This document shows, piece by piece, positions 1 through 16,992 of a stretch of DNA of 35,085 nt. A program made the position numbers and the translations under genes. Origin of the DNA: Microtetraspora sp. NBRC 16547 (GTDB lineage Bacteria; Actinomycetota; Actinomycetes; Streptosporangiales; Streptosporangiaceae); NCBI RefSeq assembly GCF_030268965.1, contig NZ_BSSE01000045.1, forward strand, positions 1 through 35,085, given 5' to 3'. The stretch's first letter is position 1; each line of letters starts with the position of its first letter. Below the pieces are notes generated by a model. That model made no database searches. It had not been told where the DNA came from and was given only the letters and a program-made list of their open reading frames with translations.

Positions 1-261
1 GGGAGACCGAGGGCCTAACCCGGCGACCACCGGGCCTTCTGCATGCCCGAACCCGGAACTCTGCACCCAGCACCCTGATCAACACGACCCCAGGAAGGCT
101 TGATCATGATCGTGAAAGATCTGGGCCAACGCCGCGCCGCACGCCACAGCACTCGCCGTCCGTGGGCCACGCCGTCGCTCATGGCCGCTTCGACCACCGG
201 CCCAACCGCTACGCGGCCCCTATGGGGTCCTTCGGACTGCGCCGGCCGCTCCGCTCCTACG
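1..261. other. No recognisable gene
   Basis: I see no frame here with convincing coding bias, no tRNA-like arm and no strong terminator. Short open frames exist on both strands but read as low-complexity Arg/Pro-rich translations typical of non-coding high-GC DNA. Confidence 0.4.
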
Positions 262-775: not shown

Positions 776-795
776 GTGCCATTAGCGTGCCATTA
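776..795 (+). repeat. Direct repeat resembling integrase arm-type sites (site I)
   Basis: GTGCCATTA occurs twice, 11 bases apart. The same 11-base phased pair, in diverged form, is seen at 9116-9133, 10281-10298 and 20546-20563. At the middle two it stands about 90 bases before an orphan tRNA 3' half. No tRNA-like sequence is seen at the matching distance here. It reads as a leftover arm site of an actinobacterial integrative element; that role is inferred from the other copies. Confidence 0.45.
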
Positions 796-899
796 ATCAC
801 AGAGAATGCCCATGCATCACCGCTGATCAACCCAATTCTGTCTGGGGCGATGGCAGGAGGGATCCGCAGGCTCCACCTCGGCCAGCTGCGGATCGTCGG

Positions 900-2267: not shown

Positions 2268-2649
2268 ACCACCGCTCGCGGAGCTTCTTCAATCCAGCGC
2301 GGGGTGCTTGATCCGGGAAGAAACGCACGGCGACAGATCAGGGCAGGTGGCCCCGAGAGGGACTGGAGGCCCAAACCAGGCCCAGGTGAGGGATGGCTTC
2401 CTCCGCCTGGGCATTGATCTTTAACAAGCATCGCGCCCGCTCGGCAGTGAACTGAGGCAGCGAGGTGAACCGCGCCGCTCAAGGAGTGCCGAAGCACAGA
2501 GCATCCTCCTGGAATCGCTCTGGAGCAGTCCACGAAGGTGCGAAGATCTGGCCTTGCCGTCTCTGCGGATCTCCCCTCTCTCCTCCCCATCAGGCTCCGG
2601 GTGATCTCCGTCGTGGGACGCCGTCACCGCGGCGGACTGCGAACCGCCC
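2268..2649. other. Intergenic stretch with one hairpin
   Basis: There is no convincing gene. The only clear structure is the hairpin at 2380-2412. The open frames here are arginine/proline-rich and lack coding third-position bias. Confidence 0.4.
2380..2412 (+). terminator. Terminator-like hairpin
   Basis: GCCCAGG pairs with CCTGGGC, extended by GAGG/CCTC, around a loop containing GGCTT, and is followed by a short T run (GATCTTT). Loop and tail resemble the hairpin after the tRNA-Gly remnant at 10433-10470. It lies 110 bases after the SMP-30 stop and could end that transcript. Confidence 0.45.
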
Positions 2650-3303
2650 CTAGTGGAAAATCACCGCGCAGCCAGTGGCGATGCTGGCCCGGCACGTCTC
2701 ATGCAGGGCGAGCCACACCACGGATTCGATCGTGAACGGTGCGTCCTCCGGCAGTGTGAACACTCGGGAGGCTTCGGCATCGGACAGGGATCCGTCCTTC
2801 TCGAGCTGGATGCCGATCACCGGAGCGCACTCGCGCAACTCCGCCAGAAGACGGTGACTTGACCCGACCATCCCGCCCCCCGAGATCCCTGCGTCGTCAG
2901 GCAGGAAGAGCGGGTCGCAGAAGTCGACCGGAACGTAGTAGCCGTCGCAGTCGGAGTGGCAGAGCAGATGCGAGTAGAGATCAAGGGTCTCGTCTTTGAC
3001 CTTGTAGTCGTCCCGGGAGAGTTCTTCCTGGCTGGAGATCGGCGTCACCGGCTCCTCCCTCTTCACGAGGGCGAAAACTCTGCGCAGATAGTGCAGGTAC
3101 CCGTAGGGGAACGAATCCACATGGCTGCGCATGAAGGGCGGCGTGCTCTCCGGCCCGCGCCAGACCGGTTCCTCCGGCTGACGCCATGTCACCCCCTCCT
3201 GCATCAGGGCCGCACTCAGCCTGTCCATCTCCGCGCGGTAGTGCGTGATGCCTTCTTCGTCGCTCGCCCACGACTCGATTGCTACAGATATGCCAAGACC
3301 CAT
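2650..3303 (-). CDS. Conserved hypothetical protein, copy 1 of a duplicated gene
   Basis: A soluble 217-residue protein without a signal peptide. It is about 90% identical (21 differences by hand count) to the protein at 16296-16949. Residues 82-127 are unchanged, including the HSDCDGYYVPVDF segment, while changes cluster in the first 81 residues. Similarity extends about 30 bases upstream of the start and stops close to the stop codon, so the duplication is about gene-sized. I do not recognise a functional family. The repeated acidic and aromatic segments and lack of catalytic motif would suit a binding protein, but no role is assigned. Unlike copy 2 it has no deaminase gene upstream. Confidence 0.75.
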   Translation of the reverse strand: MGLGISVAIESWASDEEGITHYRAEMDRLSAALMQEGVTWRQPEEPVWRGPESTPPFMRSHVDSFPYGYLHYLRRVFALVKREEPVTPISSQEELSRDDYKVKDETLDLYSHLLCHSDCDGYYVPVDFCDPLFLPDDAGISGGGMVGSSHRLLAELRECAPVIGIQLEKDGSLSDAEASRVFTLPEDAPFTIESVVWLALHETCRASIATGCAVIFH

Positions 3304-3423
3304 GCGGTAGAAGGTAGCTCTCCCATGCGAGCCGTACGTGAACCGCCCTGAGTCCGCCTTCGGCGGGCGGGAGCAGTAGTCAATACCTGTGGATCAAGAT
3401 CTTCTAGTACTCCAGCCGTAGAT

Positions 3424-4220: not shown

Positions 4221-4258
4221 GTGGGAGCCACCTTGGGAGCCACTCGAACGGACGATCA
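4221..4258 (+). repeat. Paired GGGAGCCAC repeats (site II)
   Basis: GGGAGCCAC occurs at 4223-4231 and 4235-4243, a 12-base phase, with GGACGATCA following at 4250-4258. TTGGGAGCCA and GGACGATCA recur at 14209-14234 with the identical 17-base offset. Phased short direct repeats next to a tRNA core are typical of tyrosine-integrase arm sites. The assignment is inference. Confidence 0.4.
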
Positions 4259-4345
4259 TGGACTGAGTCGAACGAACCTGAACGGAGGGACGACTGCACC
4301 GGCGCCGCGAACGATCCCGGACGACCTTGGAGATCGTTTGGGGAC

Positions 4346-4361
4346 CTACGGATCAGAAGGT
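4346..4361 (+). other. Short tRNA-Arg-like attachment core
   Basis: CTACGGATCAGAAGGT matches the anticodon-loop to variable-loop part of bacterial tRNA-Arg (ACG) as I know it. The flanks do not form a tRNA: there is no T arm downstream. With the arm-like repeats 100 bases upstream, it could be the core of an att site. Sixteen bases alone could be chance. Confidence 0.35.
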
Positions 4362-9055: not shown

Positions 9056-9115
9056 GAACGTTATGTCACGGTTTGAGGAGACTATCTAGTTAGTACGGCT
9101 GCTGGTGATCACCGA

Positions 9116-9173
9116 GCCATTAGCGGGCCATTAAGGGCGGTCAACAGGGGGCAGTCACGGTCACTCGCGGTCG
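9116..9173 (+). repeat. Arm-type repeats of an orphan attachment site (site III)
   Basis: GCCATTA occurs at 9116-9122 and 9127-9133 (11-base phase). GTCAACAGGGGGCAGTC follows at 9140-9156 and CGGTCACTCGCGGTCG at 9158-9173. The first block recurs at 20570-20586 with one mismatch and the same offset from the arm pair. The second block recurs at 10322-10337 with two mismatches. About 90 bases after the arms comes a tRNA-Ala 3' half. This layout is that of an integrase attachment region. Confidence 0.55.
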
Positions 9174-9218
9174 GCCCCTTGCCCAGGCCGAGGCTGTAAT
9201 GCCTGAAGATCAGGACGA

Positions 9219-9260
9219 TTTGCAAGCAGGATGTCAGGAATTCGAATCTCCTAGGCTCCA
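9219..9260 (+). pseudogene. tRNA-Ala (UGC) 3' half, attachment scar
   Basis: Starting at TTTGCAAGCAGG the sequence follows the 3' half of actinobacterial tRNA-Ala with a TGC anticodon: right side of the anticodon stem, variable loop, T arm with AGGA/TCCT around the TTCGAATC loop, and the acceptor end GGCTCCA. The 5' half is absent; bases before 9219 do not match. Integrases that use tRNA genes exchange strands in the anticodon loop or T arm and leave such a half at one end. It cannot encode a tRNA. Confidence 0.7.
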
Positions 9261-9354
9261 CTCATACGCAAGCCCAGATGAGGTCATGGTAGGCGGCCTG
9301 TCCGGCGTCGCCTTCCTCTCACCACCTCGACGAGGCAGTAATGGCCATCGCAAG

Positions 9355-10173
9355 CTATTTCACGAACTCCCGCGCACCGCGCAACCTCGTCCCCAGATGC
9401 CGCCGAGTCAGACCGCAGTCCAACCGCACATCGATCGGCCCAGGCAAGTCGGTGTCGGCACGCCGGCCAAACGGCAGCAGCGCTGGATCGAATCCATCAC
9501 GCTGCGCGATAAGACACCCAAGCTCATATCGACTTACCGCATCTGCCCCGGCTATGTGATGGATCCCCGCGCGATCAGAGTTCGCGAGCTCCAAGAGGGC
9601 TGCTGCCAGATCACAGACATGCACTGGGCAGCGCACGTCATCCGTGAACAACATCCCGTGCATGCCGCCTGCGGCCAGCGAGTGCACCGAGCCTTCATGT
9701 GGAGAGCCGCCGTCACCGATGATCAGAGACGTCCGTGCGATCACGGCCGCGGGATTGATCACCTGCACAGCCGCCTCTGCGGCCGCCTTCGCAGCTCCGT
9801 ACGGAGTGACCGGATCGGGGACACAGTCCTCGGCATAGGTAATCGCCTCACCTGAAAAGACAGCATCGCTGGACACGTGCACCAAACGTCCGCCATTCTC
9901 GGCGGTTGCGATGGCCACGTGAGCGGCACCAACGGCCGTCGTCACCCAGTCCGATTGGCGGAAGGCCGCGTTGATGACGATGTCAGGGCTGAACGCGCCG
10001 ATCAGGTCGACCACGGCCGTACGGTCACGAACATCAAGCGGCAGCCAGTTGACTCCCGCTGCCGTTCCCGGCCGAGTCAGATAGGTCGCAGCCACGACAT
10101 GGCCATCCATTGCAGACTGCTGCACGAGTTCGTTGCCGAGAAAGCCGCTGCCGCCCACGATGAGGATTCTCAT
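9355..10173 (-). CDS. RmlD-like NAD(P)-dependent sugar-nucleotide reductase (extended SDR)
   Basis: A 272-residue extended short-chain dehydrogenase/reductase. It resembles dTDP-4-dehydrorhamnose reductase (RmlD) and related NAD-dependent epimerase/dehydratase-fold proteins. The nucleotide-binding motif is GGSGFLG at 7-13, the catalytic Ser is in HVSSDAVF near 101, and the YxxxK pair is Tyr125/Lys129 in TPYGAAKAA. The protein fits the family from ATG 10173; an upstream in-frame start exists but adds a sequence unlike SDRs. It sits alone between two tRNA-derived attachment scars, which suggests cargo or relic of an integrated element rather than part of a dTDP-rhamnose operon, because no rml neighbours are present. 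Confidence 0.85.
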   Translation of the reverse strand: MRILIVGGSGFLGNELVQQSAMDGHVVAATYLTRPGTAAGVNWLPLDVRDRTAVVDLIGAFSPDIVINAAFRQSDWVTTAVGAAHVAIATAENGGRLVHVSSDAVFSGEAITYAEDCVPDPVTPYGAAKAAAEAAVQVINPAAVIARTSLIIGDGGSPHEGSVHSLAAGGMHGMLFTDDVRCPVHVCDLAAALLELANSDRAGIHHIAGADAVSRYELGCLIAQRDGFDPALLPFGRRADTDLPGPIDVRLDCGLTRRHLGTRLRGAREFVK

Positions 10174-10280
10174 GGGCGGTGACCGTAGTGGATCGATCAG
10201 CCCAGAGCCCCGGTCGCCCGCTGCCGCAAACCCATGCTTCCGCGCCACTTCTGTGACGCCATGACCGGCGATGCCAGCCG

Positions 10281-10337
10281 GCCGTTAACGGGCCATTAAC
10301 CAGGGGTACGAGGGGTGACCGCGGTTACTCGCGATCG
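10281..10337 (+). repeat. Arm-type repeats of an orphan attachment site (site IV)
   Basis: GCCGTTA at 10281-10287 and GCCATTA at 10292-10298 form the same 11-base phased pair as at site III. CGGTTACTCGCGATCG (10322-10337) matches the site III block with two mismatches. The second arm lies 90 bases before the tRNA-Gly half, against 92 bases at site III. Confidence 0.55.
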
Positions 10338-10381
10338 TCCCGAAGCCCAGCTCAGCCGCCCTGCGAGCGATGATCCATGCA

Positions 10382-10421
10382 CTTCCCAAGCTGACAGCTC
10401 GGGTTCGATTCCCGTCATCCG
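10382..10421 (+). pseudogene. tRNA-Gly (CCC) 3' half, attachment scar
   Basis: From CTTCCCAAGCTGA the sequence follows tRNA-Gly with a CCC anticodon: anticodon loop, variable loop, T arm CGGGTTCGATTCCCG and acceptor TCATCCG. The upstream 5' half is missing and bases before 10382 do not pair with the anticodon stem. It is followed by a tRNA-style terminator, so this end looks like the displaced chromosomal side of a tRNA target. It cannot fold into a full tRNA. Confidence 0.7.
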
Positions 10422-10432
10422 TGCGAAGCACA

Positions 10433-10470
10433 AAGGCCCAGGTCGGGGACGGCTTCCCGACCCGGGCCTT
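10433..10470 (+). terminator. Strong hairpin terminator behind the tRNA-Gly remnant
   Basis: AAGGCCCAGGTCGGG pairs with CCCGACCCGGGCCTT (14 of 15 positions) around GACGGCTT and is followed by GATCGTTT. Hairpins of this style commonly end tRNA transcripts in actinobacteria, which supports the reading that the tRNA 3' half retains its native downstream flank. Confidence 0.7.
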
Positions 10471-16279: not shown

Positions 16280-16295
16280 ATTTGTCAGAGACTCC

Positions 16296-16949
16296 CTAGT
16301 GGAAATTGACCGCGCAGCCAGTCGCGATGCTGGCCCGGCACGCCTCATGCAGTGCGAGCCACACCACGGATTCGACCTCGAACGGTGCGTCCTCCGGCAG
16401 TGTGAACACTCGGGAGGCTTCGGCATCGGACAGGGACCCGTCCTCCTCGATCTGGATGCCGATCACCGGAGCGCACTCGCGCAACTCCGCCAGAAGACGG
16501 TGACTTGACCCGACCATCCCGCCCCCCGAGATCCCTGCGTCGTCAGGCAGGAAGAGCGGGTCGTAGAAGTCGACCGGAACGTAGTAGCCGTCGCAGTCGG
16601 AGTGGCAGAGCAGGTGTGAGTAGAGATCGAGGGTCTCGTCTTTGACCTTGTAGTCGTCCCGGGAGAGTTCTTCCTGACTGGAGATCGGCGTCACCGGCTC
16701 CTCCCTCCTCATGAGGGCGAAAACTCTGCGCAGATAGTGCAGGTACCCGTAGGAGAACGAAGCCGCATGGCTGCGCATGAACGGCGGCGTGCTCTCCGGC
16801 CCGCGCCAGGCCGGTTCCTCCGGGTGACGCCATGTCACCCCCTCCTGCATCAGGGCCGCACTCAGCCTGTTCATCTCCGCGCGGTAGTACGCGATGCCTT
16901 CTTCATCGCCCACCCACGACTCGATTCCCACAGATATGCAAAGACCCAT
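16296..16949 (-). CDS. Conserved hypothetical protein, copy 2 of a duplicated gene
   Basis: A 217-residue soluble protein, about 90% identical to the product of 2650-3303 and in the same orientation. The frame is open to 17039, but similarity to copy 1 begins at the ATG at 16949, and the upstream residues are the antisense shadow of no known domain, so this start is preferred. It lies 43 bases downstream of the cytidine-deaminase-fold gene on the same strand and may be co-transcribed. Function unknown. The unchanged central block around residues 82-127 suggests selection or gene conversion there. Confidence 0.75.
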   Translation of the reverse strand: MGLCISVGIESWVGDEEGIAYYRAEMNRLSAALMQEGVTWRHPEEPAWRGPESTPPFMRSHAASFSYGYLHYLRRVFALMRREEPVTPISSQEELSRDDYKVKDETLDLYSHLLCHSDCDGYYVPVDFYDPLFLPDDAGISGGGMVGSSHRLLAELRECAPVIGIQIEEDGSLSDAEASRVFTLPEDAPFEVESVVWLALHEACRASIATGCAVNFH

Positions 16950-16992
16950 GCGGTAGAACGTAGCTTGTCCGTGTGAAGCGGCCAGAGCGCGC

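Follow-up and report, generated by a model that had tools for sequence, protein, structure and literature searches.

Integrons line up compact cassettes in tandem, with a single recombination site to each, and they often carry toxin-antitoxin cargo. CIMEs, for example XSAM1 beside pSAM2 and those related to ICESt1, are described in the cited sections as bounded by att sites, devoid of integration and transfer genes, and placed in tandem with an ICE or AICE by which they could be carried along (PMC5704250, PMC4891641). Accretion of AICEs at a tRNA-Arg gene has been described, in the part of the work cited here, in Streptomyces (PMC9513070). The ssrA islands of Dehalococcoides are likewise tandem, with repeats of the tmRNA 3' end, and according to the cited excerpt 15 of them lack an integration module (PMC3146451). 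Two further classes appear in the cited part of a single report: additive flexible genomic islands at tRNA-Lys, which are tandem, carry repeats of the tRNA 3' end and range from 330 bp to 42 kb, and tycheposons, which are tRNA-linked, cargo-carrying elements of 4-200 kb with a tyrosine recombinase and a tRNA gene at the border (PMC10872708).

Accretion and CIMEs are already known. In the open-licence literature searched, no description was found of integrase-less arm-module cassette arrays at tRNA genes in the family studied here, and compact cassette arrays across a family look like a fresh variation on these known parts.

Attachment modules in the window

The window is the whole stretch of 35,085 nucleotides analysed here, and it represents the entire contig C45 of the assembly. 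The initial annotation had described two tRNA 3' halves, each preceded by a GCCATTA pair and a second conserved block, and all of these elements, together with the distances of 92 and 90 bases and the tRNA-style terminator of the Gly half, were found where it had placed them:

9116..9134, plus strand: P-arm repeat pair of the Ala site, GCCATTA class, 11-bp phase, GCCATTAGCGGGCCATTAA
9158..9173, plus strand: second conserved block of the Ala P module (CGGTYACTCGCGRTCG)
9219..9260, plus strand: 3' half of tRNA-Ala-UGC, from the anticodon loop, attR-type core
9261..9283, plus strand: start of a tRNA-Ala-type 3' flank, which ends inside the terminator (9105-9283 aligned to a congener)
9355..10248, minus strand: RmlD-type NAD-dependent sugar reductase, 297 aa, cargo gene between the Ala and Gly sites
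10281..10299, plus strand: P-arm repeat pair of the Gly site, GCCGTTAACGGGCCATTAA, first repeat GCCGTTA (one change)
10322..10337, plus strand: second conserved block of the Gly P module (CGGTYACTCGCGRTCG)
10382..10421, plus strand: 3' half of tRNA-Gly-CCC, from the anticodon loop
10433..10470, plus strand: tRNA-Gly-type terminator hairpin, 3' of the Gly half

Both sites follow the same order, namely a 7-mer repeat with a period of 11 bp, the CGGTYACTCGCG block, a spacer and the tRNA 3' half. The half starts 92 (Ala site) or 90 (Gly site) from the second arm repeat, and about 103 bp from the arm module at both sites. The intact tRNA-Ala-UGC and tRNA-Gly-CCC genes, which the initial annotation had proposed to look for in the genome, were found on two other contigs; the Ala half differs from the former (C21:19821-19896, minus strand) in 2 of 42 positions and the Gly half from the latter (C1:596570-596643, plus strand) in 2 of 40. 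Chance matches are ruled out by an E value of 2.4e-11 for the Gly half and 95% identity for the Ala half. The Rfam tRNA model reported neither half, which is expected for fragments of about 40 nt, and ARAGORN reported no whole tRNA in the window.

The stretch 9105-9283 shows 88% identity to the Ala modules of a congener over the alignment. With up to three mismatches allowed, the arm pair occurs three times in the window (0.02 expected); the second block alone, with three mismatches, occurs five times (4.2 expected), which is not significant. The view that no integrase lies nearby holds for the whole of contig C45, where no match to Pfam Phage_integrase was detected. In this respect the window, with its 3' tRNA halves only, differs from tycheposons. 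Judged by this anatomy, the sites are putative attachment modules, in each of which roughly 100 bp of P arm adjoin the 3' half of a tRNA.

Distribution of the arm module

The exact arm pair is present in 144 of 297 genomes of the family and the reversed control pattern in one. A class-wide draw contained it in 5 of the 10 members of this family and in 1 of 108 other genomes. A stricter arm pattern was matched by 105 stretches among 84,980 species genomes, mostly in genera like Microtetraspora, Planotetraspora, Nonomuraea, Microbispora and Streptosporangium, and in some cases in further genera, among them Actinoallomurus and Actinomadura.

According to the initial annotation, arm motifs at many unrelated places without tRNA sequence would speak against a connection between arm and tRNA. 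With half detection set at 7 of 34 mismatches and arm matches to runs of N excluded, a tRNA half was found downstream of 122 of 204 non-redundant arm pairs (P sites), in 95 of them at a distance of exactly 103 bp; for random positions the count was 4 of 400. Another 41 arm pairs have a half or a tRNA upstream, and the remaining 41 have neither, so that the objection applies only in part. The downstream halves are of Gly-CCC (77), Ala-UGC (39) and Val-UAC (5) type, with one labelled Phe, and these class and tRNA counts are biased because the loci were mostly selected by the GCCATTA motif. A partial Gly match at the usual spacing occurs in 19 of 40 listed among the 41 arm pairs without a half. 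In a similar way, at L077 (about 19793, C1), L074 (about 9485, C56) and L078 (about 3628, C33), the P module is followed by about 20 nt of tRNA-Gly and then by unrelated or degenerate sequence, which possibly reflects secondary-site integration or decay.

Thirteen hand-picked modules share 29 invariant columns in their alignment, the tRNA part included. In a survey of 46 genomes that were not selected by the arm (one per genus, window genome included, counted by eye), at least 17 genomes have same-strand halves no more than 50 kb downstream of an intact tRNA-Gly-CCC, and at least eight have two or more. Where a P module meets a half, ARAGORN called whole tRNAs in L266 (18401-18492, Arg), L199 (4339-4427, Phe) and L303 (5154-5249, Pro); these calls are probably spurious, and annotation pipelines may carry such false tRNAs.

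The P pattern had no match in the viral contig collection. The Ala module with its half, at a coverage of at least 80%, was absent from the best 20 of 49 phage records and present once among the best 20 of 55 plasmid-collection records, in Nonomuraea gerenzanensis (11.85 Mb); the other phage and plasmid matches among those listed comprise the tRNA part only. On these collection matches, a phage origin of the module was rejected.

Integrases and AICEs at the same sites

Downstream of a tRNA or half, arm pairs often adjoin the 3' end of a tyrosine integrase gene that is read towards the tRNA, and a search for the arm motif beside integrase genes, as had been suggested, thus located P' pairs next to int stop codons. 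A midpoint-rooted tree was made from 22 integrase sequences, two rows being the same gene of the window genome. The GCCATTA-arm integrases together with one GCAATTA-arm integrase form a single group in this tree, with Ala, Val and Gly members and 53-67% identity between tRNA types; the GTGCCCG-arm integrases are the neighbouring group, and the GGGTGAC-arm integrase at the tRNA-Ala of the window genome is unrelated (about 20%). Therefore, arm type follows the integrase family, and the tRNA target varies within the family. The Ala integrase L246 groups with Val integrases, which hints at a change of tRNA target. The tree and the sites together point to one tyrosine integrase family, with predicted sites that start in the anticodon loop of tRNA-Ala-UGC, tRNA-Gly-CCC or tRNA-Val-UAC. 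The interpretation of the window as carrying scars of related elements with different tRNA specificity agrees with this grouping, and it is supported that the two half tRNA genes are putative landing-site marks of one mobile-element family.

An intact GCCATTA-arm integrase was not identified in the window genome. Contig C1 of that genome encodes a complete integrase of the same clade with GCAATTA arms, and at L045 (1501-2200, C19) an intact tRNA-Val-UAC is accompanied by GCCATTA P' arms and a truncated integrase gene.

L268 encodes, after the integrase, a protein of the excisionase family, then a RepSA replication initiator (Pfam E 4e-105) and a TraB-like protein of the FtsK/SpoIIIE type (RepSA and TraB under NCBIfam's own cut-offs). 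The combination of int with RepSA-like and TraB/FtsK-like genes is present in 11 of 23 integrase-bearing elements, all of at least 11.7 kb and all in other genomes, and the remaining 12, all shorter than 8.2 kb, are without rep or tra. The long elements at these sites, which carry the gene set of the pSAM2 family, are accordingly classed by gene content as predicted pSAM2-like AICEs. They are located directly downstream of the tRNA or half. Their P' arms adjoin the 3' end of int, and the P module at the opposite end is usually of the same class. The P and P' classes are equal in 20 of the 23 integrase-bearing elements in which both are readable (permutation mean 12.3, p 2e-5), including 9 of the 11 complete AICEs; the exceptions are L263 and L271, both complete AICEs, and one element on C1 of the window genome.

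Integrase-less cassettes

The stretches from half to half that are shorter than 4.5 kb comprise 115 distinct units, and in 84 of them integrase similarity covers less than 100 bp. Integrase-less here means that tblastn with 20 query integrases matched less than 100 bp and that no motif was present, a definition that a quite different recombinase could escape. These 84 units have a median length of 1.22 kb; the integrase motif was absent from all of them in any frame, and none matched the int, excisionase-like, RepSA-like and TraB/FtsK-like queries. They are arranged in 43 single runs and 16 runs of two to six, the longest being in Nonomuraea turkmeniaca (L225). A P' pair of the four classes tested was not found in 72 of the 84 units and is kept in 12, and some units keep one P' repeat (by eye). 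Fourteen units start at an intact tRNA of the right type, and in 11 of these the P' pair of the four classes is absent; two of 16 tRNA-start units (L199 and L266), where ARAGORN had called a different tRNA, were left out. A cassette is thus made up of cargo, a P module and a half, and is located beyond an AICE or directly against an intact tRNA; its left side is often a half only, without P', and its right side is a module with a half. In the single-contig genome G031 the tRNA is followed by a GTGCCAG P' with integrase, 13.1 kb to the matching P, and then units of 0.92 and 0.70 kb. Integrase fragments are present in several arrays.

The cargo was characterised in 119 predicted proteins, at most two per unit, from 77 units shorter than 2.6 kb, whose ORFs were picked by a simple codon-position G+C rule and include some false ones. 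Among the 25 most frequent of 76 Pfam families are HTH_3 (8), Gp49/HigB-like (6), PIN (6), DUF433 (5), DUF5615 (4) and ribbon-helix-helix (3), and further cargo comprises PemK, Uma2, SMI1/KNR4 and acetyltransferase genes. These counts, which are raw and carry no background rate, indicate that toxin-antitoxin pairs are common in cassettes but not universal. The PADLOC matches (best 25 of 44 families) were mainly to HTH-type models and were not taken as defence.

The cassettes resemble CIMEs in having no genes for integration or transfer (none of the tested ones in 84 units), which at the same time separates them from AICEs. On the other hand, XSAM1 measures 42 kb in the cited description, whereas cassettes are mostly 1-2 kb long, have few genes, one or two, and stand up to six in a row. 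Unlike in CIMEs, most are without the tested P' classes and the P module is common to the whole family. Their putative att sites are a module with a half on the right and often only a half on the left. The Dehalococcoides islands differ in using a serine recombinase, and a conserved arm module of matching classes is not mentioned in the cited part of that report. A repeated tRNA 3' end with variable cargo, as in additive flexible genomic islands, is found downstream of tRNA genes in the relatives, although this is a descriptive class only.

Tandem compact cassettes with one recombination site each and toxin-antitoxin cargo are seen here as in integrons, but the anchor is a tRNA gene and the sites are of arm and core type. 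The same architecture and cargo could also mean that the modules act as folded single-strand sites in the manner of attC. Four modules folded as DNA gave z-scores of -1.66, 1.24, 0.71 and 0.70, by which attC-like folding was rejected, and the one integrase scanned reached a score of 25 with the NCBIfam integron integrase model, the cut-off being 265; we give this explanation almost no credence.

Probable movement of cassettes

Close copies of some cassettes are found at different array positions and in different genera. A ribbon-helix-helix cassette is 93.8% identical between Microtetraspora malaysiensis and Planotetraspora silvatica over an alignment that begins where the left half begins and reaches into the right half. 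Beyond this, the two loci have only modules and halves in common; the P. silvatica copy directly abuts an intact tRNA-Ala. A 96.5% relative of this cassette, 884 bp long and without its P module, is located on C53 of the window genome. At the tRNA-Gly locus of two Planomonospora, which is 93.2% identical through the tRNA, three common stretches are in opposite order, two of them being whole cassettes, and an 11.8 kb AICE adjoins the tRNA in one of the two only. Four Nonomuraea carry an 857-bp DUF433/DUF5615 cassette with 98.4-99.9% identity; its left border is unclean, and the 99.9% pair (L167 and L168) is alike for about 800 bp past it. From exact borders and order changes, all of them read in genome assemblies, we infer that the cassettes are mobile.

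The units might alternatively be dead AICE relics that lost int and transfer genes in place. The integrase fragments in several arrays, the P' pair or single P' repeat that some units retain and the decayed appearance of the window itself would fit such an origin, but cassette copies with exact borders and 91-94% identity are found in different array positions, species and genera, which argues against relics as the whole account; we regard it as very improbable. A second alternative is that homologous recombination between repeated P-half modules, and not site-specific recombination, shuffles the cassettes. Most Ala modules from different loci show 74-94% identity with one another over 150-180 bp, and RecA exchange would give similar borders. 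However, a cassette at an intact tRNA shares with other sites only the half and flank at its left border, about 40-90 nt, and this explanation seems to us quite improbable.

A proposed cis model and its main competitor

The cassettes probably ride in cis with an AICE that has entered the tRNA site upstream of them, and are left there when the AICE departs. The AICE inserted at the tRNA would supply the integrase and P', which is why the cassette itself might need neither. Recombination between the tRNA-proximal site and the far P-half of the cassette would excise the AICE and the cassette as one conjugable circle; if the AICE later left alone, the cassette would remain beside the restored tRNA, and repeated AICE visits would make the array grow. 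The model follows a scheme of accretion and cis-mobilisation that is already known from the cited parts of earlier work (PMC5704250, PMC9513070), and Frankia AICEs are described, in the section cited, to excise both alone and jointly with a tandem neighbour, one of them using two alternative attL sites (PMC3218068).

The cis model accounts jointly for the far P module, the mostly missing P' and int, and the cassettes that abut an intact tRNA. The anatomy, the matching arm classes, the exact borders and the order changes are apparent in the assembled sequences, while composite excision, transfer and departure of the AICE alone would be the steps that connect them. Against the model stand the 3 of 23 elements with unlike P and P' classes, the 41 of 204 arm pairs without a half, the window genome, in which no intact GCCATTA-arm integrase was identified, and some near-identical cassettes that also share their neighbours, such as L167 and L168. 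Just 2 of 23 integrase-bearing elements have cassette-type genes within 200 bp of the far end; capture from the end of the element itself is accordingly not evident, and the idea that cassettes are copies of the far end of an AICE has little support.

Each cassette could instead be its own small circle, moved in trans as a satellite by a resident or incoming integrase. Cassettes are compact, recur singly and change order, and every one has a P module or like site with a half, as such a satellite would. Nevertheless, the tested P' pair, which the integrase-bearing elements of the family possess, is missing from 72 of 84 cassettes, and AICE-type replication and transfer genes from all 84; movement in trans is therefore considered unlikely.

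The window as the probable end of a tRNA-Ala island

Window positions 17.5-20.4 kb match the region downstream of tRNA-Ala in two congeners, G118 (C38), where the tRNA is 33 kb off with an AICE and cassettes in between, and G096 (C13), where it is 15 kb off. The third congener, G061, matches 17.5-19.5 kb, yet no tRNA was found within the 35 kb examined there, and the link of the window to tRNA-Ala thus draws on two of three congeners. Because of the match in these two, the window is most likely the far, old and decaying end of a tRNA-Ala island, C45 being unlinked to C21 in the assembly. The Ala half would then be in place, and the Gly half would be the odd one. Mixed units, in which the halves are unlike, make up 2 of 115, and the Ala-to-Gly unit of the window, with unlike cores at its two ends, is one of them. 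Its left border stops short within the Ala-type terminator (about 9283), a hint that two unlike units were brought together by a deletion; either a deletion or an exchange between similar P modules is the probable origin of the unit. The second mixed unit comes from another genome (L249, minus strand, oriented positions 660-1601) and leads from an Ala half to a Val half.

The left part of the window is a mosaic, pieces of which match other congener contigs, and two further scars are located there:

778..796, plus strand: third GCCATTA arm pair, flanked by no tRNA half
4223..4361, plus strand: module of another arm class (GGGAGCCAC pair, 12-bp phase), then a tRNA-Arg-ACG half fragment at 4346-4361

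In the congener locus L303, a GGGAGCCAC-type module stands 2 kb from tRNA-Thr-TGT and ends in a Thr half. With Arg and Thr ends, the GGGAGCCAC module is a further example of arms that stay the same while the tRNA core differs. Positions 2380-2413 resemble, by eye, a tRNA-Ala terminator hairpin without a tRNA half, probably a decayed site, and a gene of about 217 aa occurs twice (2648-3319 and 16294-16965, 95% DNA identity). Window positions 1-125 recur without any difference, and in the same orientation, at the start of C21 and with 98% identity in part of C26, and the repeat end probably broke the assembly here. Direct joining of C21 and C45 was rejected, as the same 125 bp start both contigs in the same orientation, which denotes a repeat end and not an overlap.

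Implications for the family

What do these cassettes amount to for the family as a whole? Tentatively, and with somewhat more doubt than confidence, we suggest a family-wide, integron-like capture system in which a tRNA gene would be the anchor and visiting AICEs the engine, the integrase-less cassettes would bring nothing but a P module, whose arm class would choose the AICE, and the anticodon-loop core would set a switchable Ala, Gly or Val address while the arms stay constant, with toxin-antitoxin genes in many of the cassettes. The combination of an arm pair, 103 bp and a tRNA half offers a search rule for islands that searches for integrase or transfer genes would miss. If the suggestion is true, it would explain how small gene pairs spread among soil actinomycetes without a recombinase of their own, and the arrays beside tRNA genes would be a readable record of past element visits. 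They would also provide natural combinations of arm and core for asking how tyrosine integrases switch their tRNA target.
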